Made by a program: the position numbers and the translations under genes
Notes under the pieces: model-generated
What the model was told of the DNA's origin: nothing
The model's input: only the letters and a program-made list of their open reading frames with translations
The model's database searches: none
Shown here: positions 10,540-48,856 of the stretch, in pieces
Layout of the letters: every line of letters begins with the position of its first letter
How positions within the stretch are numbered: the first letter of the stretch is position 1
NCBI GenBank assembly: GCA_024741835.1
Contig: JAENRP010000015.1
Coordinates: forward strand, 62,001 to 126,000
Direction: 5' to 3'
Length of the DNA stretch: 64,000 nucleotides
From: Diplocarpon mali
Taxonomy: Eukaryota > Ascomycota > Leotiomycetes > Helotiales > Drepanopezizaceae

Positions 10540-11000
10540 AATCTACTTATAGGTTTGGCTTAAGAGTCAATTTTTATAATATTACCTTTAAGATAATATA
10601 AAGTCCATCTTTGATTTTAGCCTTAAAGATTACTTTATAATTATTATTTATAAACTATATAAATTGATTATTAAAAACTCTTATATAATTTAACTCTATA
10701 TAGATCTTATAGCTAGATAAAAGATTAATATCTAAGCTAGGTATAAGAAGAATATTTTACAAAAGGAAAGAAACGCTAGTAATATTTATCTCTATTATAC
10801 CTATTAAGTCTATATATAACCTTCTACTACTAACCTTAATAAAGCGCCTTTTTATTTTAATAAGTAGGCCTCTAAATAGGTAGGATTTATCAATTATATA
10901 TGCTATATAATTAATATCATTATACTAATCGGATTCAAAGATCTTATAAAGATCGGCTTTTAAGATATAGGCATTTTCATTATAATTATTATCTGAATTA
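10540..11000 (-). mobile_element. CopB-1 segment A (protease region)
   Basis: This stretch is the reverse complement of CopB-2 around 44765-45235, covering the end of gag and the protease. Its left end is cut by CopC-1 (TSD AATCT at 10540-10544) and its right end by GypA-1 (TSD AATTA at 10996-11000, repeated at 50584-50588). It continues in 50584-51661. It also carries one copy of the 23-bp motif at 10545-10567, right next to the CopC-1 insertion point. Confidence 0.88.
10545..10567 (-). repeat. 23-bp palindromic motif in CopB-1
   Basis: The minus strand reads ACTCTTAAGCC then AAACCTATAAGT, the RIP-altered form of the dispersed palindrome. It is the counterpart of the copy at 45211 in CopB-2 and abuts the CopC-1 target duplication. 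Confidence 0.7.
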
Positions 11001-11254
11001 TATTACGGCCGTATCACGTGCATATCATATTAACAGTTATATCACATATCGAAGTCAGGTATACGCTAGGGTAGTAGGGTGGCTAGATCATATGCACGCT
11101 AATAAAGCACCTATACTTATTTTAAAGGAGCTCTATAAGAGACTTTCTCTTCTTCTTTATCTTTTCTTCTTAATTATATAGCGTACCTCTTAAGGTAATA
11201 CAGTCAGCGTCATTCAATTCTCGCCTTCTATACGCTTAAGAGTAAGTTGTAATA
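11001..11254 (+). repeat. GypA-1 5' LTR
   Basis: 254-bp LTR starting TATTACGGCCG and ending AGTTGTAATA, RIP forms of TGTTACGG...CGTAACA, a good terminal inverted repeat. Same length as its 3' partner. It holds a pyrimidine tract (TCTTCTTCTTTATCTTTTC) whose ATCTTTTCTT is complementary to AAGAAAAGAT just after the LTR. Confidence 0.93.
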
Positions 11255-11586
11255 TAAGAAAAGATCAACTCAACCTCTGCTAAGAAGCTTAATATCGACC
11301 CCCTTTAGAATCGTCATTTCGAACTGCCTTAAGTAACTCGATCTCTTGATCTCGACTTCTATTATAAACTGCCTTAAGCAACTCGTATATAGCGCCTAGA
11401 TCTTACTGATTTAGTTTTTAAAGAAAGCTGAAAAACGACCTTTAAATATAAGATTAGCTCGTTTTTTCGACCCCTTACTTCTTCTATTTAGCAAACGGAA
11501 TTTCACCTTCAATTTCCATTTAGAAAAAATTATTTACTATACCCTCGCTTTGCTAGCGTAGGCTGCTACCTAAAGCAGTATAATAA
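11255..11586 (+). other. GypA-1 leader, part 1
   Basis: Non-coding 5' leader of GypA-1, aligning to 36837-37170 of GypA-2. It starts TAAGAAAAGATCAAC. No reading frame is recognised. It is cut at 11586 by GypB-1 (duplicated ATAA or AATAA) and resumes at 30572. Confidence 0.85.
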
Positions 11587-11834
11587 TGTGGAGACCTGAG
11601 ATGGATAGGTCTTATGACATATATTATATAATTGGCGCAGGCCGGTAGGAGGATAAAAGGGCCACCTTCTATATATAGAGATAGCGCGTGTCGCCATAGT
11701 ACTGAATATATCCTATACTTAGGACTTATCCTTAATATCTTATTTAAAAGAGCCCGCTTATAGTGCTTCCTCCTTTTGTTTTTAAGTCTTCCCTTAGGCC
11801 TATTCTTATATTGTCTCCTCTTTAAAGTTTTATA
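11587..11834 (+). repeat. GypB-1 5' LTR
   Basis: About 248 bp, starting TGTGGAGACCTGAGATGG and ending GTTTTATA. It contains GGATAAAAGGG (11652-11662), a possible TATA element. The next bases, TTAGTGACCTACGCAGGG, could be a primer site in which RIP changed TTGG to TTAG; the tRNA is not identified. The 3' end is certain only to one base. Confidence 0.88.
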
Positions 11835-12599
11835 TTAGTGACCTACGCAGGGACCGATTTCTTAAGATTTCTATCCTTATATAACCTTATCGATCTCTTG
11901 GTTCGCAGATAAGAGACCGGCCTTTAAAATATATCTTTAAAACACTTATAGCATTTTAATTAACTTTAAAACCCTTATCCTTAATCGCCTAGTTATTTAG
12001 AACTATCGATTTTCATTTAGCAACTATTAATAACCTTAGACTTTCCCTTTTCGGCTTTGCTTCGAAAACCCTTATTCTCTTTCTTAATTCCGAGATTTTC
12101 GGAATTTTCGGCTTCTTAGTATGAAAAGTTTAGCAAACCTTATAATAGCAATCTTAAATAGCAGTGGTTTTAAGTACTTAAGTAATACTAAGCGCAAACT
12201 CCAATCGGAAGTGCCTCTTTAAAATCCTTAGAAATCCGAATCTGATAATTCAATCGCTTTAGCTTGATAAAACTCTAAAAATTGCCTTAGAATCGTCTTT
12301 AGAGACCCCTTTATTCTAAAGACTAATAGGAATTGGCCTAAAGGCTAAGAAGAATCTTAGATATAAACCTTATCTTAGAAATTAGTTTTAGATTAGGTAA
12401 ACCTTATCTTATTGCAATTAGTTATAATACTCCTATTAGTTATTTAATACCTACTTAGAATCTCTTAGCAAACTTAGATTAAACTTTTAGCAGAATCCGG
12501 AATTCCACTCTTAGGCTTAGCTTATAAGTAAGAGGATAAAAAGACGTCTTTAAATAACTTAGGACTGCTACCTACTTTTTTAATATTAACGCTTGAAAA
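11835..12599 (+). other. GypB-1 leader
   Basis: About 765 bp between the 5' LTR and the first gag-like sequence. It is AT-rich, with many TTAG/CTTA words typical of RIP. I see no conserved reading frame; a short N-terminal gag part rich in Ser, Asn and Leu may begin near its end. Confidence 0.6.
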
Positions 12600-14300
12600 T
12601 ACTAATAATAATAATAATTTTGAACTTTTCACTAACCCTTTATTTGAATCTTTTTAAACTCGTCTTAATCACTCTAAGATTGACTCGGATTCTAAATGCT
12701 CTTTAAGCCCTTTTGAATCTCGAAGTACTCCTCTTAGCAATCAATCTTATAATATTAAAGCTTCCCCTTTGCCTCTTATAGATTCTATTAACTTAAACGG
12801 TTAGTATAAAATGATAATGGCCGCATTTAAGGCTATTATTAGTCACTTTCCCCTCCTTAATTCCCCTAGCGCTCCTTACTTTATAAGCGCTAATATTACT
12901 GATTTCCTTAAGTAATATAAGGAAACTTATTACGATTTTAATATTATGTAAAAGGATATGATTTCTCGACTTCCTTACTACTATAATTATATAAGCAAAG
13001 ATATTATCAAATCCCTCCCCGAATAGAAAACGCATAGTTTATAGGAACTCCTTATTAAGGCTCTTAAGTCTGAATTCTAAGAATTTGATAGATAGCAGAT
13101 TCGCGATACCTTGGCTTTCTTAAAGGAATTTGTTCTAGTCACTTATACTTTTAAAGAACTTAAAAACTACTATCAGACTTTTACTTATATATTAAATACC
13201 TTAATTAGCTAGAAAATACTTAGCGAAGTTGAAAGAGGCCGCCTTTTCTTGCTTAGATTACTTATTGGCCTTTAAAATAAGATTATTAAGCATTTTAGGA
13301 TCAATAAGCAAGACCTTATAACCTTCGCCTTATTTAAGGAATTCTCGGCCTTTGCTTTGAAATCAGATCTTAGTAAGAGAACTATTAATGCTATAAAGTA
13401 GGAAAAAGCCCCTACTCCCTCCTATACTAAAGACCTTAAGAGCCTGGTTTAAGAACACTTAAAGGCTTTGGAAGTTATAAAGGAGGCAAAGAAGAACCTA
13501 GTGGTTATACCTTTTACTCGCAGTCCTAACCTAGGAGTAAGATCTAACCTTAGAATTGAGGAACTTAAGACCTAATTTGCAGAACTTCGAATCTAAAGCT
13601 TAGAAACTAGGATTAATAATCTCTTATAGGAAAAATAGTATATTCCCTAATTTAGTAATAGGTAAAACTCGGCCACTATAAGCTAATATAGTAGTTCCTA
13701 TTACTAGACTCTTGCTTCTTATCATTCGGAATAACCAGCTAATATAAGAACTTAATAGTTGATTAAAGAAGGAGAAATTAATCCTAACTAGCACTCTGCT
13801 AATATTAATACTATAAGGTATTAAGGGAATAGTAATAGAAGACGACTAACTTGCAACTTTTGTAATAATAAAGAACCTAACTGCGCTCTATATAAGTATT
13901 ACAACGATTGCCCTCTTTTCTATTGTTTTATTAACACTAGGGTTATATATATTAATAAGTATAGGATGCTTTGCATTAGAGATCCTAGGCTAGAAGCTAT
14001 CCTTATTAAAAAGCACTAGAATCGCTTATAATTACAGACTATTCAAATGATAATATATAGTATAAAATAGGACGAGAATTTAGTCGAACGATAGCGTATT
14101 ATAGATATAAACGCTAAAATTCCAACTTATATATATACTAGTCCAATTAATAACCTACCTAAGGGAGTTCTTAAGGACCTAGCTTCTGATTAAATAGCTA
14201 CGGAAGTTAAAGGCATTTCTATCTTAAGATAGGTTAATAATAATGTATCTACTAATATTAATGCTACTTCTGTATTTAGAAACCCTTAGAATACTTAGCG
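12600..14300 (+). pseudogene. GypB-1 gag remnant
   Basis: Plus-strand Gag with RIP stops. The capsid part near 12870-13330 reads APYFISANITDFLKxYKETY followed by RLPYYYNYI, the typical opening of this fungal gypsy Gag. A Cys-rich knuckle is encoded at about 13852-13930 (CNFCNNKEPNC, then Cys at two later sites). A motif-derived TRSPNLGVRS lies at 13515-13545, between capsid and knuckle. The exact start is unclear because the N-terminus has several RIP stops. The minus-strand ORF at 12793-13035 is a shadow. Confidence 0.75.
13516..13538 (-). repeat. 23-bp palindromic motif in GypB-1 gag
   Basis: The plus strand reads ACTCGCAGTCC then TAACCTAGGAGT, the reverse orientation of the consensus. It encodes T-R-S-P-N-L-G-V in the gag frame, in the linker before the knuckle. 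Confidence 0.75.
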
Positions 14301-16545
14301 TCCTTCTAGATCTACTACTCTTTTAATACTAATAAAACTAGCCAAAGTCCAGAAATCAATGCGTGCAACTTAGGAATCTTAATATAGAGTCCAAATGCTA
14401 AAAGACACTTAACAATTTAGAACTGCAGTAGATAAGGATGAAGCCGATATAGTAGACGAATTGATTAAAGATATAATAGATAAAGATGGCTTTAAGCTTA
14501 AAGATTAAGAAGTTGAAGTTATTGCGCGGACCCCTGACCCTAAGCGAAAGAGATAGATATTAAAATAAGAGAAATTCGTTAATAAATACGCTAGTTCAAT
14601 TGCAATAGAGAAAGCTATAGAGAATATTATAGCTTAGCAAATTAACCTTACGTTTAAAGACCTATTTAGTTTGATTAGACGCTTTGATAAAGTGCTAGGA
14701 AAGCATATCCCAGTTGCTTCTAAAGATTTGAATAATAATAAGGAAATGGAAATTGTAATATAAAAGAACTTTAAGAAGCACTTAGCCTTAATCAAATGTC
14801 TTTAGATTATAAAAGACAAAGGAACCCAAAGGTATTACGATATTATAGCAATAGCTTTAATATCTTAGAATATCAATTGAAATTATTTAGCAATTGCGAT
14901 AAAAAGCCCTATTGTTATTTGTTTTATAGAAGAATCAGTTAAAGCAAAGGCTTTGATCGATTATAGTTTAAAAGTTAATGCAATAATTAGAAAAGTGGCA
15001 GAAATGGCTCAATTAATAATCGTTAGCGATCGACTCCTTATTTATTTAACTATCTTTAAATTGAAATACAATTTTAATAGATAGGTGAAAAACGTAAAGG
15101 TTAGAGTCAGAGGAATTATTAATTATACTAACTTTTTAATAATAGAGAATTCTTTAAATGATATTCTTTTAAGAATACCCTTTATTTTAGAATCTCAGCT
15201 AATATTTAACTATCCTAAAGATAGGCTTATAAAAGCTAGCCTTTAAAATACGGATCGATCCTTAAAAGGATAAATAGTTATCGCAAGAGATATAGCCGAA
15301 TTCTAAAATAAGGTTTTAAGAAATGATTAGCTAATATAAGGGCTAGGCTTAATGCTAGTAAAGGAAGGCACTTAGCGAGGAGTTATAGCGAAAGAAAGGT
15401 AAGTTTGCCGATTTTGAATAATAGCGATTTGACTTATAGTCCTAGACTAGGAGTCAAATCTGGAATTTTGAAAATTGGTGCAATTGGAGTTTTATTAGCT
15501 TAACAATTAAGAAAAAAGAAAAATAAGGTAGAGAAGAGAGTTTGTTTTACAAATTTCGATAATTTACTAATCATTTTGAAAAACTTAAAAACTATTTATA
15601 AGCTAGACCCGCAAGTGAAAAATAATAAAATTACTAATAATATTTCCATCTATGCACTTTAAATTAACGACTTAGAAAATCTTTTATTTATTTTTAAAAA
15701 GGAAAATTCGGATCGTTTTATAGGATTTGATAAAAAAGGAAAGAAGTAGAGAAGTATAGTACTAGCTAATATTCGAACTATATATAAAAGCAAGGCCGAT
15801 AAAGTATAACTGGTAGATTAGAGAATCTTTAATAGCTTAAAGCCTAAAGGACTAGATGATTAATTTGAATAAGATAAGAAGCTTCAACCTTTAAAGCTAA
15901 GTAGCAAATTCGACAAGTTTATTATAGGTAGATTTTCTAATAAACTTATCGGATATCGATTAATAAAAGAACGTTTCGATATGCTAAAAATTAGAGAAGA
16001 CTTAATAGAGTAAGAATGCGAACTACTTTATAAAACCTTAATAAATCGAAAGGACGCCTTAGCTTTTAACTAGATAGAACTTGGCCAGATTCGAGAAGAG
16101 GTTACGCCTTATATTAAGATTAAGATAATACCTTACGAAGCCTAGCAAGAGAAAACATTCGAGGTCCCTAAAGCTCTTTAAGAAAAGGTAATCGAAATAT
16201 TAAAGGATAGGCTAAAGTAAAGTGTTCTTAAGTTTTATAATAGCCCTTATAAGAATAAATAGTTCCTAGTTGCTAAAAAGGAGAAGGGAACTTATAGACT
16301 AATAATAGTAGTAGTAGAGATGAACCAAGTAACTATTAAAGATGCTAATATTCCTTCGAATATAGATAAGTTCTTAAATGAATTCGCAGGATTAACCCGC
16401 AGCTCTCTTATTAACTTCTTCTTTAGATATAACCAATTCATTCTTAATGTTAAATCGAGAGATATAATAGCAATTCAAACCCCTCTTAAGCTACTTCAGA
16501 TAATAAGATTACCTTAAGGGGCTATAAATTCGATCGCTTAATTTG
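14300..16545 (+). pseudogene. GypB-1 pol remnant, part 1 (protease to RT)
   Basis: Protease region near 14940-15230: the frame reads KAKALIDYSLKVNAI, matching the shape of a retropepsin ALIDSGAxVN site, so the Asp may be kept. The palindromic motif follows at 15432. The RT N-terminus is at 16050-16545, with the segment EMNQVTIKDANIPSNIDKF at about 16318-16374, and ends in LPxGAINSIAxFV. CopC-2 interrupts right after this Phe-Val; its duplication ATTTG lies on both sides and pol resumes at 23742. Many TAA/TAG stops. Confidence 0.8.
15432..15454 (-). repeat. 23-bp palindromic motif in GypB-1 pol
   Basis: The plus strand reads ACTTATAGTCC then TAGACTAGGAGT, reverse orientation. It encodes T-Y-S-P-R-L-G-V in the linker between protease and reverse transcriptase. 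Confidence 0.75.
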
Positions 16546-16717
16546 TGTCGTGCTATATTTAGAGGTGGATTCTCAGTAGTGGCAGAAGCTTGTAAATTTC
16601 TACTCTAATTGTATATCTGAGCTCCCTTTATAGAAGTGCTCCGTGGCCACTTTAGGGGTATATTACATAAGCCAGTCCTTAGATGCCTTAGTGCCTAAGG
16701 CTCCTTATGGCGCAATA
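16546..16717 (-). repeat. CopC-2 3' LTR
   Basis: 172 bp; the plus strand starts TGTCGTGCTATATTTAGAGG and ends GGCGCAATA. The internal palindrome at 16686-16700 reads CCTTAGTGCCTAAGG: both arms changed together relative to the other copies, so the stem survives. Confidence 0.94.
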
Positions 16718-17002
16718 CACCCCCTAGGTGAGAAGCAGCTCCTAGCTAGGCTCAGCTATAACTAGCGCCAGATCTAGTATATAAGACTCCTTTTTATACT
16801 CCTTAGCTTTTAAAATAATGAAAATTGCTTAACAAAGCTGTAATAAATGAAAGAGGGAGCGCGTTCCAGGTGCTTCCTCTATGGAATGGAAGCTAAATCA
16901 GGTGATAAAGGAAAGTCAACAAAGGCAGCGCGCTTATAAAAGTATGCGTTTTTCCCTTATAAAGCTTTCCTTCCTTATACTTCTTCAAATAATCACTTTA
17001 AA

Positions 17003-17900
17003 ATGGAGAATAGCAATAATAACTCTAAGGAGCGCCCTATTAGGGCTACTATTATAAGCTTCCTAATCGTGCTCCCTTACTCTTACTAAAGACTTATAGC
17101 GAAGTCGTTATACTTAAATATAGCTTAGAGCTTCTTAGCGCGGTAGATAGTAGGAGGATGATAACGCGCCTAAGACGTTCGATGTAGTAATACCCCTAAG
17201 AGGGAGCGCGCCTCCTCCCCTCCCCGCCACCCCTTAGGCTATAGTTCTTAAAACACCGGCGGTCCCTTCTATAGCTCCCTCCTTCTATCGCAAGCCAGAG
17301 CAGGGGCTAATAAGGAATATACCATATAAGGGGTGCGTTTAGAGCTTCCTAGCTAGGAAGTCGGCTGGCGTATGCTTTAATAGCACAGTAGGAGTATGCT
17401 GCTTTTGTTATACAAAAGGAGGCCACGCGTGCTAGGAGCTTCCTATTAGCGCCTTAAAGGCGTAGGAAGATTATATATTCTTATTAGAAGAGAATAATAG
17501 TAACTCCGCAGTACATTCTCAAGCTCCCTCTAAGTGGTTTGCCACTAATAAGCAGTTTAAGGCCTCGCCACCACTAAGAGGAAGGTAAAAGAGGAGCTTC
17601 AAAAGGCGCGCCAGAGAGAGATAGAAGAGGTAGTATTATTAGAGGGTATATTAATTATAAGCTTTCTCATACTATAGCTAATAGCTTCCTAGAACCAGTT
17701 GGTCAAAAGCTCCTGCCGCCGCCGATTATAGCACCTCTTAGCCTTGCCGCCTGCCTTGCAAAGGCTTTTAAGGCTCCTGCGGCTGCTCCTATTATTACTC
17801 CCGGCGTTGCTCCCTAAGCGGCTCCTAGGGCTATGCTACTAAAGGAGTCGGTTGCTTCTCAATAGGGACGCGCCCTTATATTATTCGCAAAGCTATTAGA
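17003..17900 (+). pseudogene. CopC-2 antisense Cys- and Ala/Pro-rich ORF
   Basis: Plus-strand reading matter between the 3' LTR and the end of pol, opposite in sense to pol. At 17373 the frame reads CFNSTVGVCCFCYTKGGHAC, closely like CRCFNSTFGAHC in CopA (52479 onward). An Ala/Pro-rich part follows at about 17690-17900 (LLPPPIIAPLSLAACLAKAF), as in CopA. An ATG at 17003 (MENSNNNSKERPIRAT) is a possible start but in another frame, so introns or RIP-era indels must intervene. The region 16718-17002 before it looks like untranslated 3' sequence. Function unknown; a Cys-rich nucleic-acid-binding role would be a guess. Confidence 0.5.
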
Positions 17901-17959
17901 GGTTCTGATTATCTAAGGGAGTTAGTTTTAAGCCTTCCTATATATTAGTATAAGGAAAA

Positions 17960-23480: not shown

Positions 23481-23554
23481 GTAGTAAAACCTCTTTAAGA
23501 AGTCTTTAAATATAGTAGATTTTTGATCGTTTGCTCCTTAGGAGTTGCGAATGA

Positions 23555-23564
23555 TGCTGATAAC
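23555..23564 (-). promoter_or_regulatory. CopC-2 primer-binding site
   Basis: The plus strand reads TGCTGATAAC next to the 5' LTR, so the element's own strand has GTTATCAGCA. CopC-1 and CopC-3 have TGCTAATAA here. The core resembles the anticodon arm of tRNA-Ile with GAU or AAU at the anticodon. Because RIP turns G into A, the G form is more likely ancestral. Confidence 0.5.
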
Positions 23565-23736
23565 TATTGTATTATATTTAAAGGTAGATTCTCAATAGTG
23601 GCAGAAGCTTGTAAATTTCTACTCTAACTGTATATCTGAGCTCCTTTTATAAAAGTGCTCCGTGGCCACTTCAGGGGTATATTACATAAGCCAGTCCTCA
23701 GATGCCTCAGTGCCTGAGGCTCCTCATGGCGCAACA
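23565..23736 (-). repeat. CopC-2 5' LTR
   Basis: 172-bp partner of 16546-16717; starts TATTGTATTATATTT and ends CATGGCGCAACA. The palindrome CCTCAGTGCCTGAGG at 23705-23719 is intact. Confidence 0.94.
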
Positions 23737-23741
23737 ATTTG

Positions 23742-26400
23742 TCTAAGTAATCTATAAGATACTAGTGGATTATATACCTAATATTGCGCTCCCTTATATA
23801 GATGATATAGGAGTAAAAGGATCAAGATCATTCTATAACTATAAAGAAGTTCTCCTTAGTATACGACAATTTATAATAGAATATATTCAGAACCTAGACT
23901 AGGTACTTATACAATTCGAAAGGGTAAGAGCAACGGTTAGTCCGAAGTTATAATACTATCTCCTATTGATGGAAATTATTAGTTTTATTACTGATTCTAA
24001 TAGCCGAAGTCCTTAAAGGGCTAAAGTACTCAAAATCGACAAATAGAAGAGGTATAACGACGTGGCAGAAGCTCGCGCGTTTATTAGAGTTATAGTATAC
24101 TATCGCATTTAGATCAAGGATTTCGCTAAAAAGGCAGCACCTATTTACTCCTTGTTTTGGAAAGGGGCTGAGTTTCAATAGGAGAAACCCTAAATAGAGG
24201 CTATAAAACAACTGAAGCAAGCGTTGCTTAAGGCGCCTTATTTGATCAAAATAGACTATAGAGCCGACGCTAGGCCAATTATACTAATAATTGACGCAAG
24301 CTTAATCGGATAGGGTGCTATCCTTTAATAAGCTGATAGCTAATAGAAAAGACATCTAGCTTACTTTGAAAGTAGTCTTTAGAATCTAGCGGAGATAAAG
24401 TATAATACTATTAAACGGGAATGCAAAGGCGCTTTAAAGGTAATAAAAAAGATAAGAAGCAACCTTTATAGCACTTACTTTATTCTTGAAACTAATGCTA
24501 AAGTGCTAGTAGAATAATTGAATAGAGCTGCAAGCGACCTACTAAGAGCCTTACTAATAAAATGGATTGCTTAAATAAGACTAATAGACTTTGAAGTCAA
24601 ACATATTTTAAGAATGAAAAACACCGCTACTAATAGCCTTTTAAGAAGAACTTAGCCCTACCCCTTTGATTTGATTAAAGAAGATAAAATAGATATTAAT
24701 AAGTAGGTAGAAAACGAAGTTGGTTATCTATTAATATATCGCCTTAAAGGGACTCGACTCGTAAGCTTAGCCCGTAAGTTAAATAAGAGAATTTTATCAC
24801 CTAACTACTTAAGTGACTTTAAAGAAATCGCAAAGTTTTTAATTACGCTTAAATAACTAAAGACAGTTGCTCTTAAGGATTTTCAGAAATTTAAAGCTAA
24901 AGCTTTGATTTATCTAATATAAAGAAGACGATTATTTAAAAGAAGCAATAACTCATTCTTTATACGACTCTACTTAGATAATGAAAAACTAAGGGCTAAA
25001 GCTATCTAGGATATTTATAAGGAAACTAGCTACTAAGGAGCTAAGTCCACTTACTACTAACTCTTAAGAAAATTCTTTTAGAAAGGCTCTTTTAAAGATT
25101 GCAAAGCTTTTATAAAGAGTTGCGTCCCTTATTAGAAACGAAAACCTAGTCGTAAGGAAAATCCCTTATTCTTAACCTAGCTATTAGGCCTTTTTTATAA
25201 AGTCAGCCTTGATATTATATAAGTACTAACTACTAAGAATAGGATAATATATTTTACTTTAGCAAAGGAAGACCTATTAGAATGGCTTAAAGGATAACCT
25301 TTAAGATCTACTAACTTTAAATCTATTGCAAAGTTCCTTTAGGAAGACGTAGTCTATTGCTATAGACTTTTTAGCAGATTAACTATTAATAGAGGCCTTG
25401 AAAACAAAGGAGTAGTTAAAGCTTTCTTACGAAAATATAGTATCAAACGGGTTCAAATCTCAGCGTATAACTCAAAAGCTAATAGAGTGGTAGAACGAGG
25501 ACACTATAATATTCTTAATAGTCTATCCAAAGTTACTTATAAAGGATTTAAGGATTAGATAAAATACTTTTATAGAATACTCTTTGCTTATCAAACGATA
25601 ATCTATAAACCAATTGGAGTTATACTATTCTTCCTTATCTATAGCAAAGAGGCATAGCTCCCTCTTAAATCCTAATAGCTTATTTGGAGATTGTTCAACT
25701 ATAGTTAAATTCGGAACCGTTCTAATTTACTTATAATAAAATGCTAACAACTTAAGCTCTAAGATATAAATATAAAGGAAATCATTTTGCAAAAGAAATA
25801 ATATTAGGAAAAAGCTAAGGAAGCGTAGGCTGCTTCCAAAGTACTTAAAACGCACCCTATTTGAAAAGATAATCTTATCCTAATCTACAATATTACAAAA
25901 AGTATTAATATATTAGTAAATACTAAACTTGACTATCGATAGCTTAGTCTATTTAAGGTTAAATCTGAGTAGAAAGATAAGGGATACTATTCTCTTTAGG
26001 AACTTGATAGAGTTGATATTAAGGGAACCTTTGCAGCTAACTGACTAAAGCGCTTTTATTAATGCGACTAGACCTTGTTCCCTTTAGAAAACGAATTAGA
26101 AATTAATATAACCTCCGAATCCTCTATAGGAACCGACGGCGATATAAGCAATTTTAAACCCTTAGATAAAGACTAAGATTTTTCCAATTTGACTTATAAG
26201 CCGGTCTTACGAATAAAGAATATTAAAATACCTAACTAATCGCAACCTTAAGTTATTATTCCTAAAATATCTAAAGAACGTAGATAGGAATATTAAACGA
26301 TTTCCTAGCCTATCAATTGTCCTACCTTCTTCTAATCCTTATTTTTACATTTTCGGCGAGGTCGCCTCCTTTATTATTTAAAATATAGATCTTTTAAGAT
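23742..26400 (+). pseudogene. GypB-1 pol remnant, part 2 (RT, RNase H, integrase)
   Basis: Continues the GypB reverse transcriptase directly after the CopC-2 duplication. The catalytic box reads LPYIDDIGVKG at about 23787-23820, with both Asp present. Connection and RNase H: KIDYRADARPIILIIDAS near 24250-24300, then FILETNAKVLVEQL. Integrase: a zinc-region KSCVPY near 25120, with a second Cys lost, and VSLDII near 25205 holding the first catalytic Asp. The tail is acidic (ENELEINITSESSIGTDG, about 26090-26140) and I see no chromodomain. Stops are mostly TAA/TAG. The minus ORF at 23963-24220 is a shadow. Confidence 0.8.
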
Positions 26401-27454: not shown

Positions 27455-27477
27455 ACTTGCGGTCCTGGACTAGGAGT
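27455..27477 (-). repeat. 23-bp palindromic motif in GypB-1 extra ORF
   Basis: The plus strand reads ACTTGCGGTCC then TGGACTAGGAGT, reverse orientation. It encodes T-C-G-P-G-L-G-V in frame with the upstream part of the ORF. Confidence 0.78.
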
Positions 27478-28842: not shown

Positions 28843-28865
28843 ACTCTTAGGCCCGGCTCGCGGGT
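28843..28865 (+). repeat. 23-bp palindromic motif at a frame change
   Basis: ACTCTTAGGCC then CGGCTCGCGGGT. The GypB extra ORF is coherent in one frame before this point and in another frame after it. Confidence 0.65.
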
Positions 28866-30089
28866 CAACTCCCTTAACAATAGAACCATTGACTATTATA
28901 TGATTCCTATTGTAAAACAATCGATTAGAGAATTTGCTATATAGGAAAAGTCTTATAAGTCATTTATACTTATACCCTATTATCCTAAGAACTCTTAATA
29001 GATCTTATTAAATCTAGCGCAGAGCGCCATATAACGAAAAGAGCTAAATACTAAGGAGAAAATTATCTTAAAGGAATACGTTTCAAACGATACTACTCCA
29101 TTCTTAGTGTTTACAAGACAAGGTACATTTGTTAATCTCAATTCGGAACGGGAACCTAGAAAGGGCGGCTTTTTAACTATTAGCAACAACTATATAGAAG
29201 TTATTAGCAATAATTCACTTAAGAACAGTACCAACCTAGAAGATTTTCTCATTGACTTACTTAGTATAAAGAGACTAAGTATAGTAAGATAAGGTGCGGC
29301 CGGAGAATCTTCTGCAAAGTTCTATATAACCCTTAGGATAATAAAAGGCGGTCTATTATCAGAGGCCCTTGTAGGTAGAAGATTATAAAATAACCTATTA
29401 GTAGTAATAGCTATAAAGGAGTTGTTCTTAAAGGATGTGGCACAATTGATAATATATCTAAAGAAATATAAGCAAGAACTTTTTAACGATTTTACTAATA
29501 CTTAAAAGCTGGTGCAATAACTGGAACTATAGTTATATAGCGACAAATCCTAGGCTAAGACGAAAGGCACTAACGATAATATTAAGGCTAATAATATGAT
29601 TGACGAGATAATTCTTCTTAAGAAGTATAGCATTAAAAAGCCTTATGCAAAAACCCCTGATACGACTCCTAGGCCTAGCCTGCGATTCAATCTAGAGAAA
29701 GGTAAGGCTAAGGAAGTCGTGGCTATAGAATCTCCTACTGCGTCCCCTTTAATAGTAGATGACTCTCTAAAGAATGATAATAATAATAAAGAGGATAATA
29801 ATAATAACGCTGCAATATAAGTCTCCCTCCTTATTAGTAGAAGCTATCAAACTATACTAGCATCTTTACAAAATACTAAAGCTCTTATAATACTAAGACC
29901 AGACTCTTCCAATACTAATAGCGAACTATTAAGAAGAAGTAGGCGCTTTATAAAGAGAGTATTGTCTGGTAATAGTTCTTCCTATCCCTTAAAGAGAACT
30001 AAGGAAAATTAACATCTAGGTTAGTACTATTTTTGATTATTTTTACAACTCTATAGCTTATTTGTTTATTTTGTTAGTTTCGTTTTCTG

Positions 30090-30112
30090 ACTCCTGGGCC
30101 TGGCCTATAGGT
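30090..30112 (+). repeat. 23-bp palindromic motif in GypB-1 3' UTR
   Basis: ACTCCTGGGCC then TGGCCTATAGGT, about 60 bp after the last ORF stop. A low-complexity A-run then T-run follows at 30123-30160. No other feature lies between it and the 3' LTR. Confidence 0.8.
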
Positions 30113-30323
30113 GAAAAGTGTATAAAAAAAAATAAAAAAAAAAAACTCTTTTTTTTTCCTTTTACCTTTAATAATAATATAGCCCTAGTTTAGGCCTTTT
30201 GATATATTAGTTTTCTCGCACTTAAGGTTTGCTAGTAATTGACATGCTATTGCCTTAACCTATATTGTTTTGTATTCTTTGCTAATAGTAGTAGGAGCTA
30301 CTACTTTTGTTATTTGGGATATA

Positions 30324-31396: not shown

Positions 31397-31419
31397 ACTC
31401 TTAGGCCTAGACCGCAAGT
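31397..31419 (+). repeat. 23-bp palindromic motif in GypA-1 gag
   Basis: ACTCTTAGGCC then TAGACCGCAAGT; encodes T-L-R-P-R-P-Q-V. The counterpart in GypA-2 is 38017-38039. Confidence 0.75.
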
Positions 31420-33498: not shown

Positions 33499-33521
33499 AC
33501 TCCCAGTCCTAGCCTGCAAGT
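33499..33521 (+). repeat. 23-bp palindromic motif in GypA-1 pol (single copy)
   Basis: ACTCCCAGTCC then TAGCCTGCAAGT, encoding T-P-S-P-S-L-Q-V. The same place in GypA-2 has two copies 45 bp apart. Confidence 0.8.
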
Positions 33522-35385: not shown

Positions 35386-35453
35386 ACTCCCGGGCCTGGC
35401 CTACGAGTAACTTCAGCGCAAATCAATTCCACTCCCAGGCCCGGCCTATAAGT
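35386..35453 (+). repeat. Two 23-bp palindromic motifs, 45 bp apart, in GypA-1 pol
   Basis: Copies at 35386-35408 (ACTCCCGGGCC, TGGCCTACGAGT) and 35431-35453 (ACTCCCAGGCC, CGGCCTATAAGT), between RNase H and integrase. GypA-2 has only one at this site (41754). Confidence 0.82.
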
Positions 35454-37839: not shown

Positions 37840-39235
37840 ATGCCACTTAGGAGGAGTGAAAGGTTAACCGCACCTCCATTAGGCCTTACTGCTACTAGTT
37901 CTCTAGGCCTTATTGCTACTAGTTCTAGTTCTATAGGCCTTACTGCCAACCCTGGTCCTAGAGATATTCCCCCTCTTAAGCCCACTTAGGAAGCTACCTC
38001 CCTTAGTATAGATTTTACTCTTAGTCCCAGACCGCGAGTAGATTCTCGAAATACTCCCCTTCTATCGATTAAAGTCAAGGAAGAACCGACGTCTACCCTT
38101 ACTATATCGGCCCCTCTCTTTTCAGCTGCCTAGCAGGCCGAAATCGCGAACCTCGTCGGCGCCGCTATAGCCGCCGCTTTCTAAAATAATGCTATTGCCC
38201 CTTTTTCCCTAAGTGCTAGCCCTTAGAATACTTGGTCCCTTACCGCCGATTTGCTGCCTCCCCTAGACTACTACCTCCCGATTATTAGACCTTTAGTCCT
38301 AGCCGTCGACCCTTATCGAATCAAGTACCCTTAAACCCATTTTAGCAACCACTAAGGCGAAATCACCTATAACGCTTAGAAGATGGCTATAAAGGTATTT
38401 ATTTAAGAGTACTTAGGTAACTTCACTTTAAGAGAGGACTAGATCACTGCCTACTTCAAGTGTACAATAGGTGAAGCTTAGAACCTGATCCTATAATATA
38501 TAGATCCTATCTTTACTAGTAAGTTTATATGTACTACCAACGTCCTTAAGGTCTTGGATCAGAGGTTCTTTAACTACAACTACGTTTAGTCCGCTAAGCT
38601 TAAATACAGCAGGCTAACTATAGGTTTATTATCATATAATGAGTTCCGATCTAAGTTCGTTACCCTTACTATAGCTGGAAAGATCGATTAGTCTCGCTAG
38701 TTTGATAATATCTATGAAAAGGTCTCCCTAGCCTTAAAGAACGACCTTCGAGTAGAGAAGTACAAAATGAATAATGATTATACTACTTTAGATGAGTTCT
38801 TAGCTATTGCAGACTGCGAGGCCTATAATATCAAGTAAGAAGAGGCCTATAACGCTTGACGAGTCGCCTCTGCTATCGCATTCTCTCTTATAAAGGACCG
38901 CGTCCTTAGCATATTAAAAAGGGAGTCATAGAGACCTACTGCTATAGCTACCTCCCTAGCTCCTTGCACTTATTCTTCCTTGCTAGCGACTTACTAAGAA
39001 AGGTCTGCTAGCCTAAAGCTGTCATCTGGTCTCTATTACAACTGCGGAGCCCTTGGTCACTATGCAATAGACTGCCCAAAGCTAAAGAAGCAAGGCGAGT
39101 TTATAGTAGCTGAAGTTGAGATGGAAAACGACTTGCTATTAGGAAACTGCTAAGCTATGGTAAAGACTCCTACTATAGTATAGGTCACAATTTGTAGAAA
39201 GACTTGGATTTTGATTCCCGCCTATTAATAGGCGG
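37840..39235 (+). pseudogene. GypA-2 gag remnant
   Basis: Starts at ATG 37840 (MPLRRSERLTAPP). The N-terminus is Ser/Thr/Leu/Pro-rich with short internal repeats (GLTATSS) and one 23-bp motif at 38017. The capsid-like central part includes FSLSASP and LPPLDYYLPIIRPL. The knuckle near 39037-39080 reads YYNCGALGHYAIDC: the first Cys is now Tyr (TGC to TAC), so the CCHC finger is broken. It ends near 39235 in frame 1, while pol runs in frame 3, compatible with a -1 shift. Numerous RIP stops. Confidence 0.85.
38017..38039 (+). repeat. 23-bp palindromic motif in GypA-2 gag
   Basis: ACTCTTAGTCC then CAGACCGCGAGT; encodes T-L-S-P-R-P-R-V in the Pro/Ser-rich N-terminus. Confidence 0.78.
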
Positions 39236-39791: not shown

Positions 39792-39859
39792 ACTCCTAGT
39801 CCTGGCCTGCGAGTGAAATCTGCAAACTCGAATCCTACTCCTAGTCCTGGCCCGCGAGT
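39792..39859 (+). repeat. Two 23-bp palindromic motifs, 45 bp apart, in GypA-2 pol
   Basis: Copies at 39792-39814 (ACTCCTAGTCC, TGGCCTGCGAGT) and 39837-39859 (ACTCCTAGTCC, TGGCCCGCGAGT), with a degenerate third start near 39880. The 15-residue unit reads NPTPSPGLRVKSANS then NPTPSPGPRVKYANS. GypA-1 has one copy here. Confidence 0.88.
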
Positions 39860-41753
39860 GAAATATGCTAATTCGATTCCTACTCTTATGGCCTTTTGCA
39901 GACCTAGGGATAGCAGTTTCTTTAGAGACTTGAAAAGAGATCTGAACTATATAAAGAAGGCCTTGCTAGGAGTACTAGACCCCCTGCTCCCTCTTTTAGT
40001 AAAGAGGAATACTACTCTAAAGCCGGCTTGCCAGATCAGCCTGATCTTAGCCTTAGCAATCAGCGCCCTCTACTACCGCTTTACAACTAGGGCAAGACGA
40101 GCTATATAGACTTAAGAACCGGCGCCTAAAGAGTTCACATTCGTAAGCTCTATTTATGATCTAGACCGAGAAATCAATTGCCGAGAATCGGTTAGGCAAG
40201 CTGAAATTAGCTCCCTTGGCCTTAGTTCGGCGCTGCAAGCCAAGTATAAGAGCAACAACGAGCTAATAGACTAGAAGCTCCTGCTTTAGTACGCTAAGTT
40301 TAAGAACGTCTTTAGTCGCCAGGCCTCTGATCAGCTGCTAAAACCCAGACTAGGGGTAGATTATAAAATCGAGCTGATAGGCGAGAACAACTTGATAATC
40401 GAACCCCTCTGCCGCTTTACTGACAAATAGCTCTTAGAGGTCAAGAGCTATATTCTCAAGAACCTGCATAAAGGATTCATTAAAGCTTCGAGTTCCCCCT
40501 AGGCAGCCCCAATCCTCTTTATTAGAAAAGCTGATAGCTCCCTACGTCTATATATCGATTATTAGAAACTAAACGCTCTGACGAAGAAAGACCCTTACCC
40601 GATTCCCCTTATCGATAAGATGATGGCACGTATATCGAAAGCTCGTGTTTTTATAAAAATCGATATATAACAAGCCTTTTACCGTATCTGTATGTTAGCT
40701 GACGCCGAAGACCTGACTACCTTTCGCACGCATTATAGGACCTACAAATATAAGGTTTTGCCATTTAGGCTGACAAATGGGCCTGCCACCTTTTAAAGGT
40801 TCATTAATAATATTCTCCTTAACTACCTCGACGATTTCTACTCTGCCTACTTAAATAATATTCTAATCTATTTAGAAAACTCCCTTGACTATAAGATTTA
40901 CGTTAAGAAGATCTTAGGAATTCTCTAACGCCATAGCCTTTAAGCAGATATTAAGAAAAGCAAGTTCGGGGTTACTAAGACTAGGTTCCTAGGGTTTATT
41001 ATTAGAGTTTATAGAATTGAGGTAGACTCTGATAAGGTCTTAGTCATTTAAGAGTAGAAATACGCTAAGAATGTATACGGCGTATAAAGCTTCCTCGGGT
41101 TCTGTAACTTCTACCGAAGGTTTATTTAAGGCTATAGTTATATCTGCCGACCCTTAATAGCTCTTATAGGAAACGTTCCTTTTGACTTTAATAACACTTG
41201 TAAGGAAGCTTAGAAAGCTCTGCGCTTAAGCTTCCAAACAACCCCGATTTTGTGCTACTATTACCCTTAAAAGCAGATAAGGCTTGAGACTGACGCCTCT
41301 GATGGCGTAGTTGCCGGCGTACTTTCCTAACTCTAGGAAGACGATAACTACCACCCAATCAGGTACTTCTTGAAGACGATGAATAATGCTGAGCTGAATT
41401 ACCCCATTTATGATAAGGAGCTCCTAGCGATTTTTAGATCGTTCTACTAGTATAAGGCAGAGCTACTCAGGGCCTAGAAAATAGTATACGTATATATAGA
41501 TTATAAGGCCCTTAAGTACTTTATGACAACTAAGGACTTAATAGCCCAGCAGGCTCGCTAGGCAGAGTTCTTCGCTGATTTCAACTTCCTTATCATATAC
41601 TAAATAGGCATAATAAATACGCTAGCTAATATACTCTTACATTAAGACTAGGAGCTGACCCCTCTTAAGGCTAGGAAACGAGCTTTATGCCACTAGCAGC
41701 TTTTACCTAACGATAAGCTCTTTATAGAAGTGCTTGCTACTAGAGGCGATTCC

Positions 41754-41776
41754 ACTCCTAGGCCTGGCCTACGAGT
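41754..41776 (+). repeat. 23-bp palindromic motif in GypA-2 pol (RNase H-integrase linker)
   Basis: ACTCCTAGGCC then TGGCCTACGAGT, encoding T-P-R-P-G-L-R-V. One of the least RIP-altered copies. Confidence 0.85.
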
Positions 41777-43688: not shown

Positions 43689-43693
43689 AATAG

Positions 43694-46600
43694 CTTCCGA
43701 TTCCGATCGAAATACTAGGCCTAAAGACCTCTAACTCTCTCGAAAGAACTGGTAATAATAGTTCGACGATTTAGAGCTTTACTTTAAGAGCAAAGGCATT
43801 GAAATAGCGATTTAAAAGATACTTATTAAATATGCGAGAATAGCCCTTTATACTCCTTCTACCGATTTATCCACTTCTACTTTAATAGCTAATATAACTG
43901 CTAAAGATTTGCTAAATATATTAAATAAGCTTAGCCTAAGAGCTTTAGTAGATAATAACTGAGATTCTTAAAGGCAGATTTTAAATATAGAAAAGGAGAA
44001 GGAGTATAAGCTGGCCTTAGCTAAATGTAAGCTTAAGATTAATAGAGGTTTAAGCGATAAAGATAGAGATTTTATTTGAATTTATAATAATATAAAGATA
44101 AGATAAGATACTTTGAAAGTAAAATACTTTTAAACAACTGCCTTTAATACTTAGTATCTACTATAGTAGATTACTTTATTTTAATATAGAAAAGATAAAG
44201 ATAGTAAGGATATAGATATAAATATAGACTTTGCTTAATTTATATTATATAAAGTAAGAAGGAGAGTAAGAGCCGTAGATCCTAAGATAGCTATAACTTT
44301 TAAAGAAACTCAGCTTTTTAGTTTCCTATTTAATAGCCTCTCTCTTAAGTTTGCTATTGCGAAATAATCTCTTCTTATTTAACCTAACCTTAAGATCTAT
44401 AAGAAGATCGATCTCCTTTAAACTATCGAGCAAGACCTCGAAGGACGCTTTAAATCGGCAAATGCCGCGTTATAGGGCAATAATAAGCCTAAGAAAAGGA
44501 AGGAGCGCAGGACAAGCCCTTAAGCTCATCAGGGATACTATTTCTATAATAGTACTTATAATATTATTAATTATAAAGTTAAAAGGCAATTGATCGATAT
44601 AGTCGCTAGCTTTAATATTAAGAAGTAATTGAAGCAGAAGTTAAGAAGCAAACTACCCTTATCCTACTAAAGGCCGCAACTACTAAGGAAAGGTAAAGGA
44701 AAAGGCTATTTAGCCAAAACTTTAGCAGATACCTCTAATAATAATAGTAGGTTATCTAAATCTAAATCCACTTTTAATAATTCAAATGATAATTATAATA
44801 AAGATGCTTATATCTTAAAAGCCGATCTTTATAAGATCCTTGAATCCAACTGGTATAGTGATACTAGTTGTATAGTATATATAACTAATAAACCCTACCT
44901 ATTTAAAGGCCCGTTTATTAAAATAAAAAGGCGCTTTATTAAGGTTAGCAATAGAAGGTTATATATAGACTTAATAGGTATAGTAAAGATGAATATTATT
45001 AGCATTTCTTTCCTTTTATAAAATGTTCTCCTTATACCTAGCTTAAGCATTAATCTTTTATCTAGTTGCAAGATCTATATAGAGTTGAATTATATAGGAG
45101 TTTTTAATAATTAATTTATATAGTTTATAAATAATAATTATAAAGTGATCTTTAAGGTTAAAATTAAAGATAGACTTTATATTATCTTAAAGGTGATATT
45201 ATAGAAATTGACTCTTAGGCTAAACTTATAAGTGGATTCCTTTAAAGAAAGTACACTCTTTACCTTAATATAATTAAGTAAGGATAGGAAGAATAGATGG
45301 ACTCTTAAGCTAGGATTGCAAGTAAAATTCGCGAAAATGACTCTTAAGCTAGGACTATAAGTAGAGTGTAAGGTATCTTTAAAGATGACTCTTAAGCTAG
45401 GATCATAAGTGAATTTAGTAGAAATAACTCCTAGGCTAGGACTGCAAGTAGATTTTATAAATTTGCTAATAATAACTCTTAGGCTAAGACTGCGAGTGAA
45501 ATTCGCAAATTTGTTAGAGACAACTCCTAAGCTAAGACTGCGAGTAGATCTTACGGTTTTATTAAAAACGACTCTTAAGCTAAGCTTGCAATTGGAAAAT
45601 GGCAAAACCTCGAACTGCTATTACTAGTCCTTTTTAGCTATTAATAATAAAGTATCGACTGATAATAGGCTATTAAAGCTATTAGAAGCCGAAAGCCTAT
45701 TAAGGTATTAGCTAATATATAAAAGATTCGCATATTTAAGGCTAGAGAAATTAAGGGGCCTATATAAGGTTTTAATTTTAAAACGGAAGATCTAAGTACT
45801 AAAGGATCGCTTAGTATATCGAATTTGCAAACTGATAAAACTTTAAAATCAAACGCAAATTAAGCTTAGTCTATAGAAAGATTCGATACTAGCGCTAATA
45901 TCTATTAATACTATTAGACTATTTATAACTTTAATTAAAGGAAATAATTGGTTTTTTCAAATAGTAGATAATTCTACTTAGCAAATATAGACTATTTGCG
46001 CTAGGACCAAATTTGAGCTTATAAAAAAGCTAGAAACTTAGAAAGTGATAGAGGAACGCTGGACCTAGTTAAAGCTAATAGCTATTAGGTCTAATAACGC
46101 ATTAGAGATTAGAGTAAAGCTTAATAAATAGGTAAAATAAGGAGTTTGCTATAAACTAACTATAATATATAAAGGTTCCTATTAGAATAGCATCGCTAAG
46201 CGAAGCATCTAGCAAATAGAGATTGATTATTGCGCTCTATTATAAGATGTTAACCTACTATTAGAATTCTAAGACCTTGCGATTAAGGCAGACGTATACT
46301 TGCGAAATAAAATAGGTAGTAGACTAATAGTTAATAGCACTTGAATATTGCTATATAAGGTATATTTCAAATAGAAACTAAGCCTAGACTATATCTGCGT
46401 CTTTAGAAGCATCTACTACTCTTATATTAGCCTAAAGTCCTAGCCTATAGGTATAAAGAGTAAGAAGCTAATAGACTGAGGTAGAGAGTATATATTTATT
46501 AGGTATATTAAATAAATAATAAAGCAATAGATAGTATACGCATTAGACCTAAGGCAAGTAATTATATCCTTAATAGTTAAGTTTGATAAATCTTAAAATA

Positions 46601-48680
46601 GAGGGGAGCTATCCTTAAAGCTTTATATACCTAAAGATTTGTAAGGTATACTATTTAATAGTAATACTATTAAGCCGAACTAATAACCCTTCTCTTTAAG
46701 CTTAGGTATATTAAGCGCACCTGCTAATCGACGACCTGCTAATCGCCTAAAGGCCGAATAGACTATTCCTATCGTTTGCGAACTACTTAAAGTATAGAAT
46801 AACTTCGATATTATTATCCCTTTAATTAAAGCACCTATAATAAAGGATATTCCTAAAATAGGTATAAGTAATAATAAGCCTCTACTATTAGAAAGTAGTT
46901 CCTTAGATAATAAGCCTATAGAACCTATAGCCGAACCTACGCCTTTAAAGAGGAATAGAGACTTAGAATCGGAAGATACCTTAGATAAACGCGAGTTTAA
47001 GCGTATCTAGGTTATAATAGCGCATAAGATCTATAAGCTCAAACTCTAATAGAGCTTTGATAAAGATAATGCGTTCCTAACCGCTAAGGAGATAATGAAA
47101 ATCTCTCTTCTAAAGATGTATAATAAAGCTGTTAACGACTTAGAGAATAGAGCAATATAGAATAAGGCAATTTAAGAGGAGATAAGCTCTCTTATTACAA
47201 ATGGTATATAGATAGAGGAACCGATGCTAAAGGATATAAACCTAGTATTAATAAAGTAGGTCTTTATAATTAAGATATATATAGATAGGACCTTAGAATA
47301 TTATAAGGCAAGGCTTATAGCTAAAGGCTTCTCTTAATAGTATAGAGAAGACTACTTCGATACATTTGTGCTAATAGTTCGTATAAATACCCTTTGCATA
47401 TTTATAGCAATAGTAGCCGCTAAGGACCTTAAATGCAGATAGTACGATATTAAAAATACATTTACTAAAGCGATTATAAAGGAACGGATTTTTCTCTCTT
47501 GATCTAATAGTATTCCTATATGCGCTAGCTACTCCCTTTATATACTCTGCAGTATCTATAGGCTTAAACAATTAGCCTATAATTAAAACCTTTTATATAG
47601 CTTTACTCTAGTAGAAATAGGATTCGTTTAAAGCTTAGCTAACCCTTATCTATTTACCTATGCTAAGCGTAGAATCAAGTTGCTACTATATATTAATAAT
47701 ATTACTATAGCTATGAAAATAACTACTTAATTAGATTAGTTCTTTATAATAATTCGGAAATGTTTTAATACTAAGGATCTAAGGGGAATTTATAAGATCT
47801 TTAGCATCTGCGTCATAAGGAACCGCTCTATTTAAGAACTTTGGTTAAATCAAAAGTAGTATATTAAGAAGATCCTAAACCGAATGGGACTTTCTACTTA
47901 TACTTCTAACTTTAAGCCAAAGCGTATTCCAATCGAAGGAAAGTATAATAAGTTAGAGCCTACTAATGAAAATAAGTAGAGAGGAGATTTGAAAAAGTAC
48001 TAATAGGATATTAGAGTGATTATATATACTATAGTATATATAAGACCAGATATTGCCTTTATTATTAGGCAACTTAGTCAGAACTTAAAGGATCTAATGA
48101 TTTAATATAAGAATGCAGTTAAGTGACTTAGAAGGTACCTTTGATTGATAATCATATAGAAGGTAAGATATAGACTAATAAAATATATAAGCGCAAAGCT
48201 TAAGGTATATACTGATTCCGACTAGGCAAATATGAAAGGTTAGAAAAGTATATCTGGAAGTGTAGTAATACTATATAGTGGACCTATATTATAAAGAAGT
48301 AGGAAGTAGAAATCAATAGCTACTATAAGCATTAAGGCTAAATATATATTGATATTATTAAATTGTAAGCAAGGATTATAAATCGCCTAAGTTCTAAAAG
48401 ATATAGGTTTTATTAAGTATATTAGATAAGATAGGAACTGTATTAATCTTTAAGTAGATAATATAAGGGCGATTGCATTTGTAAAGAATCTATATTTGCA
48501 TAAGCGATTGAAATATATTAATATTACTTACTACTTTATTTATAACCTTATTATAAAGAATAAGTTATTAATCACCTATATCCTAATCGATCAAATAGTA
48601 GCAGATGGATTTATAAAGCTACTAAAGATAGTTATAAAGTTTAAAGCGTTTAAAGATATACTAAGGTTGTAAAAGATAGT
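43694..48680 (+). pseudogene. CopB-2 gag-pol remnant
   Basis: Continues from a likely ATG at 36572 across the GypA-2 insert: MAI then ASDSDRNTRPKDL. Gag is about 43694-44780, with a helical, Lys-rich segment. The protease region near 44850 reads WYSDTSCIVYITN, close to a copia DTGA-type site. A motif array follows (45211-45593). The pre-integrase zinc region is near 45690-45760 and the catalytic LISIDT near 45890. RT is about 47000-47900, with ARLIAKGFS and YxEDYFDTF; the box reads YINN near 47690, so both Asp are lost. RNase H is about 48200-48640, with YTDSDxANMKG. Open pieces at 44351-44593 are in other frames. Confidence 0.87.
45211..45593 (+). repeat. In-frame array of eight 23-bp palindromic motifs in CopB-2
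   Basis: Copies start at 45211, 45301, 45340, 45388, 45427, 45475, 45523 and 45571. Intervals are 90, 39, 48, 39, 48, 48 and 48, all multiples of three. In the pol frame the units read like M-T-L-K-L-G-L-Q-V or T-P-R-L-G-L-Q-V joined by short hydrophobic linkers. The array lies between protease and integrase. The long minus-strand ORF at 45177-45605 is the mirror of the palindromic array, not a separate gene. Confidence 0.9.
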
Positions 48681-48704
48681 AGGGGCTTAGCAGGCTTAAG
48701 GATA

Positions 48705-48856
48705 ACTCCTGGGCCTGCCCTGCGAGTTAGGTTATATAGTCTTATAAAGTAAAGTTTTTTTTTAGATCGACTCTTAGGCCTAGACTGCGAGTTAAGTTAC
48801 GTAGTCTTATAAAGGAATGCTTTTAGAAATTTGACTCCCGGTCCTACCTTATAAGT
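48705..48856 (+). repeat. Three 23-bp palindromic motifs in CopB-2 3' UTR
   Basis: Copies at 48705-48727 (ACTCCTGGGCC, TGCCCTGCGAGT), 48770-48792 and 48834-48856, spaced 65 and 64 bp. A larger unit of about 65 bp including GTTATATAGTCTTATAAAG seems to be duplicated. They lie after pol and before the 3' LTR, so here spacing need not keep a frame. Confidence 0.85.

Follow-up and report, generated by a model that had tools for sequence, protein, structure and literature searches.

An abundant symmetric DNA site of about 35 bp in Gypsy and Copia retrotransposons of Diplocarpon mali, and its possible role in protein binding

Introduction

The stretch of DNA analysed here (the window) is the 64 kb at C15:62001-126000 of the 49.4-Mb assembly of Diplocarpon mali, and all window coordinates are relative to its start. 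It holds long terminal repeat (LTR) retrotransposons of the Gypsy and Copia superfamilies. A first-pass annotation had drawn attention to about 25 copies of a 23-bp imperfect palindrome, found in three of the element families (GypA, GypB and CopB) and described as either a tiny mobile module or a shared functional site. We find that the motif is a longer, rigid dyad, which occurs thousands of times in the genome, in several families of both superfamilies. It is a candidate binding site for a dimeric protein.

Results

Elements that carry the motif

The families with sites belong to Gypsy (GypA and GypB) and Copia (CopB, CopD and CopE), and each holds from 1 to about 11 dyads in its internal DNA, in linkers, in gag or after pol. 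GypA-2 is a Gypsy element according to Pfam, with a zinc knuckle from 39037, reverse transcriptase (RT) at 40521-41003 and RNase H at 41265-41582. Its sites lie N-terminally in gag, ahead of RT and past RNase H. CopB-2 is a Copia element with RT at 47254-47907 and a Pol_BBD match, below the cut-off, at about 44851-45072; eight sites lie between these two matches, and three past RT. Further families were seen among 68 loci (labels L0xx), which were fetched around places matching an 18-base core of the motif. CopD (L006) is a Copia element with gag_2 and SH3 domains, and has two sites between them and two directly past SH3. In CopE (L001 and 12 relatives) a single site is located close to the 3' end; the Copia label of this family rests on a reading of the pol end, which has no Pfam match.

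The GypB sites reported in the first-pass annotation are real, but its two parts of GypB are one element (11838-16547 and 23738-30340), interrupted by a nested 7.2-kb Copia element. This is concluded because the site spacing equals that of two GypB copies on C1, in which successive sites are +1009, +1916, +162, +1967, +2697/2698, +1386, +885/876 and +1644/1648 apart. The steps in the window are +1009, +1916 and +162 before the nested insertion, and +2698 and +1388 after it. GypB is long, with sites that span nearly 12 kb in the C1 relatives. Its RNase H is at about 24206-24568, followed by an integrase zinc-binding match at about 24980-25150 (25.1 bits, under the cut-off of 25.5), and the site at 24757 lies between the two. 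Pfam named nothing in several kb of GypB beyond the integrase match, and gave no match in nine open pieces near motifs.

The placement in linkers and 3' regions that had been proposed holds for GypA, GypB, CopB and CopD, while other sites are in gag or in stretches that Pfam does not name. A single inherited domain family is ruled out as the source of the motif: sites occur in gag, before RT, after RNase H, after Pol_BBD, after SH3 and past RT, in Gypsy and in Copia. The first-pass annotation had stated that common descent of the elements does not account for the motif, and no common descent is visible at the places where the sites lie.

Two other Copia elements in the window (RVT_2 matches, minus strand) have no dyads in 27.9 kb including fragments. 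The dyad-free Copia families are over 7 kb long (window 193-7791, 51661-59233 and 16548-23737) and share the island with the dyad-rich families. The similarity of a nested Copia element stops at 10540, beside the CopB-1 dyad at 10545, which may be chance.

Sites in the window

The strict IUPAC pattern for the dyad, ACTYNYRRKYYNRRMYYRNRAGT, is self-complementary, so that a scan of either strand finds the same sites. The window has 22 matches to it, whereas 100 dinucleotide shuffles and 60 third-order Markov sequences of 64 kb have none. A search for the 23-mer, with as many as 3 mismatches allowed, gave six matches in the window and no match in any of 100 dinucleotide shuffles. The motif thus withstands the shuffled-sequence test that had been proposed for it. 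The TA excess of the sequence suggests that it has been mutated by repeat-induced point mutation (RIP). A RIP-like composition alone is not sufficient to produce the motif, because two equally TA-rich Copia elements in the window have no sites. Chance occurrence in RIP-like sequence is thus ruled out by the shuffles, the Markov sequences and these site-free elements.

All 25 copies listed in the first-pass annotation carry the motif with at most two departures from the degenerate consensus (Table 1). The strict dyad is exact in 20 of them, the exceptions being 28843, 30090, 45571, 48705 and 48834. At the level of two departures, the looser scan also admits chance matches in the window (16440 and 27678), and the sites at 30090 and 48834 therefore rest partly on their position in elements. 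Four copies had been overlooked, namely 12507 and 24757 (both exact), 29665, and the decayed site at 15594, whose counterparts are exact in the two C1 GypB copies. The count of 8 Watson-Crick pairs in the 11 arm positions of the form originally quoted is correct, and two of the remaining three would be G.U pairs in RNA.

Table 1. Dyad sites in the window, with the evidence for each
Site	Position	Strand	Remarks
CopB-1 fragment	10545..10567	.	exact dyad; similarity of nested element stops at 10540
GypB 5' gag-like	12507..12529	.	exact dyad; frame 1 in relative; missed earlier
GypB s2	13516..13538	.	exact dyad
GypB s3	15432..15454	.	exact dyad; palindrome prolonged by flanks GATTTG/CAAATC
GypB s3b, decayed	15594..15616	.	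degenerate scan and C1 counterparts; missed earlier
GypB RNase H-integrase linker	24757..24779	.	exact dyad; not frame 0; missed earlier
GypB s5	27455..27477	.	exact dyad
GypB s6	28843..28865	.	degenerate scan; junction of ~3.9-kb internal deletion
GypB	29665..29687	.	23-mer mismatch and degenerate scans; missed earlier
GypB near element end	30090..30112	.	degenerate scan; partly decayed
GypA-1 N-terminal gag	31397..31419	.	exact dyad
GypA-1 pre-RT linker, one unit	33499..33521	.	exact dyad
GypA-1 post-RNase H linker, unit 1	35386..35408	.	exact dyad
GypA-1 post-RNase H linker, unit 2	35431..35453	.	exact dyad; 45 bp after unit 1
GypA-2 N-terminal gag	38017..38039	.	exact dyad; frame 0 with zinc knuckle
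GypA-2 pre-RT linker, unit 1	39792..39814	.	exact dyad; frame 0
GypA-2 pre-RT linker, unit 2	39837..39859	.	exact dyad; 45-bp tandem
GypA-2 post-RNase H linker	41754..41776	.	exact dyad; frame 0
CopB-2 array, unit 1	45211..45233	.	exact dyad; downstream of Pol_BBD match
CopB-2 array unit	45301..45323	.	exact dyad
CopB-2 array unit	45340..45362	.	exact dyad
CopB-2 array unit	45388..45410	.	exact dyad
CopB-2 array unit	45427..45449	.	exact dyad
CopB-2 array unit	45475..45497	.	exact dyad
CopB-2 array unit	45523..45545	.	exact dyad
CopB-2 array, last unit, decayed	45571..45593	.	degenerate scan
CopB-2 past RT match	48705..48727	.	nearest to quoted form; not exact dyad
CopB-2 3' region, unit 2	48770..48792	.	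exact dyad
CopB-2 3' region, unit 3, decayed	48834..48856	.	degenerate scan

Abundance in the genome, spacing and symmetry

The whole-genome scan suggested by the first-pass annotation puts the motif vastly above its reversed control, with 7,877 strict dyads in 49.4 Mb against none. A stricter 35-base pattern gives 1,517 (control 0), and the 18-base core with up to 2 mismatches gives 321 (162 + 159; reversed control 1). The sites are concentrated in certain elements. A motif row was obtained from 66 of the 68 fetched loci (all except L048 and L086); L082 and L087 resemble chance matches in ordinary sequence, so that 64 loci look like element sites. Twenty 10-kb stretches picked regardless of the motif, with 192,202 readable bases, contained a single dyad, located in a TA-rich part of L015.

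The spacing of the two halves is rigid. All 134 of the facing half-site pairs found in 357 kb, at spacers of -5 to 30, have a spacer of 1, and a dyad with a two-base spacer occurs three times in the whole genome, against two for the control. Tandem units would account for the back-to-back pairs at 16, 22 and 25 and the direct pairs at 28 that the 357 kb also contain.

The motif is a dyad of about 35 bp, RATTYN-ACTCSYRGKCC-N-GGMCYRSGAGT-NRAWTY, in which two half-sites face each other with one base between them. The 23-bp unit proposed earlier is therefore real, but it is only the centre of the conserved sequence. Statistics on the shape rest on 31 sites picked for maximal difference, with tandem neighbours and related families included. 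All 31 have a pyrimidine at position -1 and a purine at position 25, both of which lie outside the 23-mer and played no part in finding the sites. Complementary pairs make up 78 of 186 in the six outer positions, compared to 54.9 (standard deviation 5.9) for position-shuffled flanks. When flanks are exchanged between sites the number is 81.4, which is similar to the observed value. The consensus is therefore symmetric, without pairing within a site. No arm pair covaried above across-site shuffles at p < 0.05 in the 31 sites, a comparison with little power at near-invariant positions; the pair 9/15, for example, is complementary in 21 of 31 against 18.2 expected by shuffle (p about 0.2). Arms that vary independently are what separate reading of the two halves would produce.

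Reading frame and sequence conservation

The sites in GypA, CopB and CopD are in frame 0, as judged by their offsets from the domain frames, and encode TPxPGLRV or its reverse-strand partner. The first-pass annotation had stated that either orientation encodes similar peptides (TPSPGLRV or TRSPGLGV). The GypB linker site (24757) is out of frame 0, and the gag site is read in frame 1 within a 190-residue open frame of L003. CopD holds sites in both orientations. Sites thus occur in differing frames and on both strands, and DNA rather than peptide is therefore favoured as the conserved entity.

An alignment was made of seven copies of the gag site, from about four lineages, in which 17 of the 21 pairs are divergent. 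Transversions between the divergent copies are rarer in the motif (4.6%, n = 391) than in the flanks (16.5%, n = 4,002), and in the motif they are confined to positions 9, 12 and 15. In the frame of the gag site these are the second positions of codons; in the frame-0 sites they are the third. This indicates that the DNA may have been under selective constraint in the past, across subfamilies. Most sites were found by means of the motif, which makes the case for past selection weaker than that for the other findings.

Recent copies were compared in 151 pairs of 100 sites. Conversion of the motif between them is not supported, as it changes like its flanks. Of the 49 motif transversions among recent copies, 32 are at positions 2/22, which is the CopD variant. 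A subgroup of CopD (L033, L036, L043, L046, L052, L073 and L080) has a common transversion at motif position 2, AGTC for ACTC, which is possibly a lineage marker or a weakened half-site.

Mobility and tandem multiplication

All comparisons of copies were made within the genome's own sequence. No convincing target-site duplication emerged at the 31 sites when element length was varied from 23 to 37 and repeat length from 3 to 7, in 40 combinations. Two identity sums had p = 0.011 and 0.016, and the perfect-repeat count was 2 against 0.31 (p = 0.024), which is approximately what is expected from 40 tests. Searches with joined flanks at two sites found no empty site in 80 scored copies, of which 74 were occupied and 6 undecided; occupancy was judged by extra length from coordinates, not by reading the inserted sequence. 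At the GypA post-RNase H site, 40 of 175 candidates were scored: 35 are occupied, 5 match on the left side only, and none is empty. The occupied copies have, beyond the joined flanks, one unit (23 bp) in 12 cases, two units (68 bp) in 20, and 77, 113 and 158 bp in one case each. At the CopD site, 40 of 173 candidates were scored, of which 39 have about 71 to 90 extra bases, one is one-sided, and none is empty.

The sites multiply as in-frame tandem units. Close spacings between exact dyads are 39, 45, 48, 54, 60, 66, 78 and 90 bp, all multiples of 3, and the number of units in an array ranges from 1 to 4. The CopB units in the 3' region are 65 and 64 bp apart, and spacings of 107 and 124 occur in L003/L038.

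A deletion in GypB

The identity of the window GypB to the two C1 copies drops at 28843, from 76-96% to the left of this site to 36-58% to the right. A copy on C7 shows the reverse, with identity rising from 38-50% to 60-78% across the same point. Three separate searches, for the left flank, for a right flank of the C1 type and for one of the window type, gave 240, 239 and 205 candidates respectively, of which 40 each were scored. Among the scored copies, nine contigs have both the left and the window-type right flank, on the same strand and in the same order. The two flanks are 24 bp apart in the window and in C470 (C470:10465-10887), 3,932, 3,931, 3,931 and 3,982 bp apart in C483, C461, C614 and C182, and 9.9, 11.1 and 19.1 kb apart in C78, C286 and C355. 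The C1-type module directly follows the left flank in C90, C150, C100, C178, C155, C76, C301 and C149. On a plain reading, two copies of GypB (window and C470) would have lost about 3.9 kb of internal sequence between one dyad site and another.

One-sided homology was found in 119 pairs among 171 sites. About 90 pairs between loci were inspected, and these were mainly tandem-array pairs; the exceptions were 28843 and one pair from L003/L038 that adjoins masked bases.

Discussion

The explanation that we favour, with confidence a little under even, is that the dyad is a site for a dimeric sequence-specific protein, and that it has been multiplied by in-frame tandem duplication. Of the possibilities raised in the first-pass annotation, a shared protein-binding site fits best with the rigid one-base spacer, the symmetric footprint of about 35 bp without covariation of the arms, and the mixture of frames and strands. 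Unrelated LTR retrotransposon families carry the dyads internally, often in linkers that tolerate extra residues. The protein that binds them as a dimer would most likely be a host protein, and the elements may profit from the binding, which would make the dyad an internal site of the enhancer, insulator or chromatin-anchor type.

Several observations weigh against this explanation. The 31 sites used for the shape are not wholly independent of one another, and their selection for likeness to the consensus may dampen a covariation signal. The halves are unequal: 23 of the 31 sites combine a C-type with a G-type half, eight are G/G and none is C/C, an absence that is partly due to site picking; there is a C/C site at C1:520859. 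A plain homodimer would not predict unequal halves, and a heterodimer or an oriented site is conceivable instead. Two Copia families manage without the dyad. In the gag alignment, four of the seven copies (C1a, L057, L077 and L091) were fetched via that very site, which hides transversions at other positions of the motif. The one contrast free of this selection bias (window against L003/L038) has 0 of 23 in the motif and 12.8% in the flanks, a result with a probability of about 4% by chance. Motif transitions at the gag site are not reduced (90 of 391, or 23%, against 20.5-29% in the flanks). Recent copies keep the motif no better than its flanks, with 1.4% against 1.0% transversions and 11.2% against 9.9% transitions.

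Old mobility, RNA structure and a role in recombination all have lower odds than the protein site. A hairpin element of 23-35 bp, copied into retrotransposons long ago and now fixed, would explain why one short palindrome is found at many unrelated positions, in both orientations and often in tolerant linkers, and why many site groups have unrelated flanks. It is nevertheless unlikely: the target-duplication statistics are no better than 40 tests would yield, neither GypA nor CopD has an empty site, the number of units changes as tandem units with spacer, and the outer flanks are symmetric rather than directly repeated. The tiny mobile or copied module originally proposed is not supported, for the same reasons and because positions and spacings recur within each family. 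Slightly less likely still is a hairpin in the element transcripts (or a cruciform in the DNA), serving for example in packaging, export or translation. The sites with domain context are inside or just past gag-pol, and so are probably transcribed. The folding energies of five short sequences range from -9.7 to -14.6 kcal/mol; z lies between -2.1 and -4.6 for four of them and is -0.2 for the other, and if G.U is allowed then positions 6/18 pair in 30 of 31 sites and 7/17 in 24 of 31. The earlier idea of an RNA structure is to this extent upheld by folding, but it is weakened by the independent variation of the arms, in which no pair covaries within sites, 9/15 is mismatched in 10 of 31 and 5/19 pairs in just 6 of 31. 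The sites also occur in both orientations, and Rfam at gathering score has no match in the window.

Recombination is about as improbable as the hairpin. Elements would exchange or lose modules at the dyad, through template switching by reverse transcriptase or through a site-specific recombinase. This would be consistent with the switch of GypB identity between C1-like and C7-like at 28843, with the nine contigs in which the flanks are adjacent (two), 3.93-3.98 kb or 9.9-19.1 kb apart, and with the variable number of array units. Against it, there is a single deletion junction among the sites compared, and ordinary repeat-mediated deletion accounts for this junction. A more elaborate form of the idea, which we consider distinctly improbable, is that the dyad is a cassette boundary on which the superfamilies converged or which they exchanged, where a pairing protein lets elements lose, gain and swap inter-domain modules. 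If so, the domain linkers of Gypsy and Copia would be marked by one recombination or pairing site. The least probable explanation, to which we give very little weight, is a short linear peptide, TPxPGLRV, acting in polyprotein linkers in processing or in docking to host proteins. It agrees with the frame-0 sites of GypA, CopB and CopD and with close spacings that preserve the frame. It does not agree with the GypB linker and gag sites in another frame, with the two orientations in CopD, with the CopB sites past RT at spacings of 65 and 64 bp, or with the CopE sites close to the 3' end. As a general cause, a peptide motif is rejected, given that frame and strand vary among sites.

The presence of almost 8,000 rigid dyads, in elements where no common descent is visible there, suggests that something in the genome reads the sequence. 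If the dimeric reader that we favour is a host protein, then several retrotransposon families would depend on it, and a single 35-bp probe could fish it out. Unrelated mobile elements would then share one internal control site inside coding DNA. To our knowledge there is no comparable dyad common to superfamilies.

Rickettsia palindromic elements, mitochondrial GC clusters and the double-hairpin elements of Allomyces are also short palindromes found in many places, including in-frame in genes. These are bacterial or mitochondrial and are regarded as mobile, whereas the dyads here are in a 49-Mb assembly with retrotransposon islands, and have no empty sites or convincing target duplications. 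Host DNA-binding proteins on fungal retrotransposons are another parallel, a putative one on our side: Sap1 and a CENP-B homologue bind Tf1/Tf2 of fission yeast, in or near the LTRs, while the dyads here are internal. The gypsy retrotransposon of Drosophila reportedly has an insulator made of Su(Hw) sites, in one family and in one untranslated region. The dyads resemble these in being repeated, in degenerate form, inside LTR retrotransposons, with binding only putative here. The difference is that the site described here is symmetric, about 35 bp long, often located in coding linkers, and present in unrelated families of both Gypsy and Copia.

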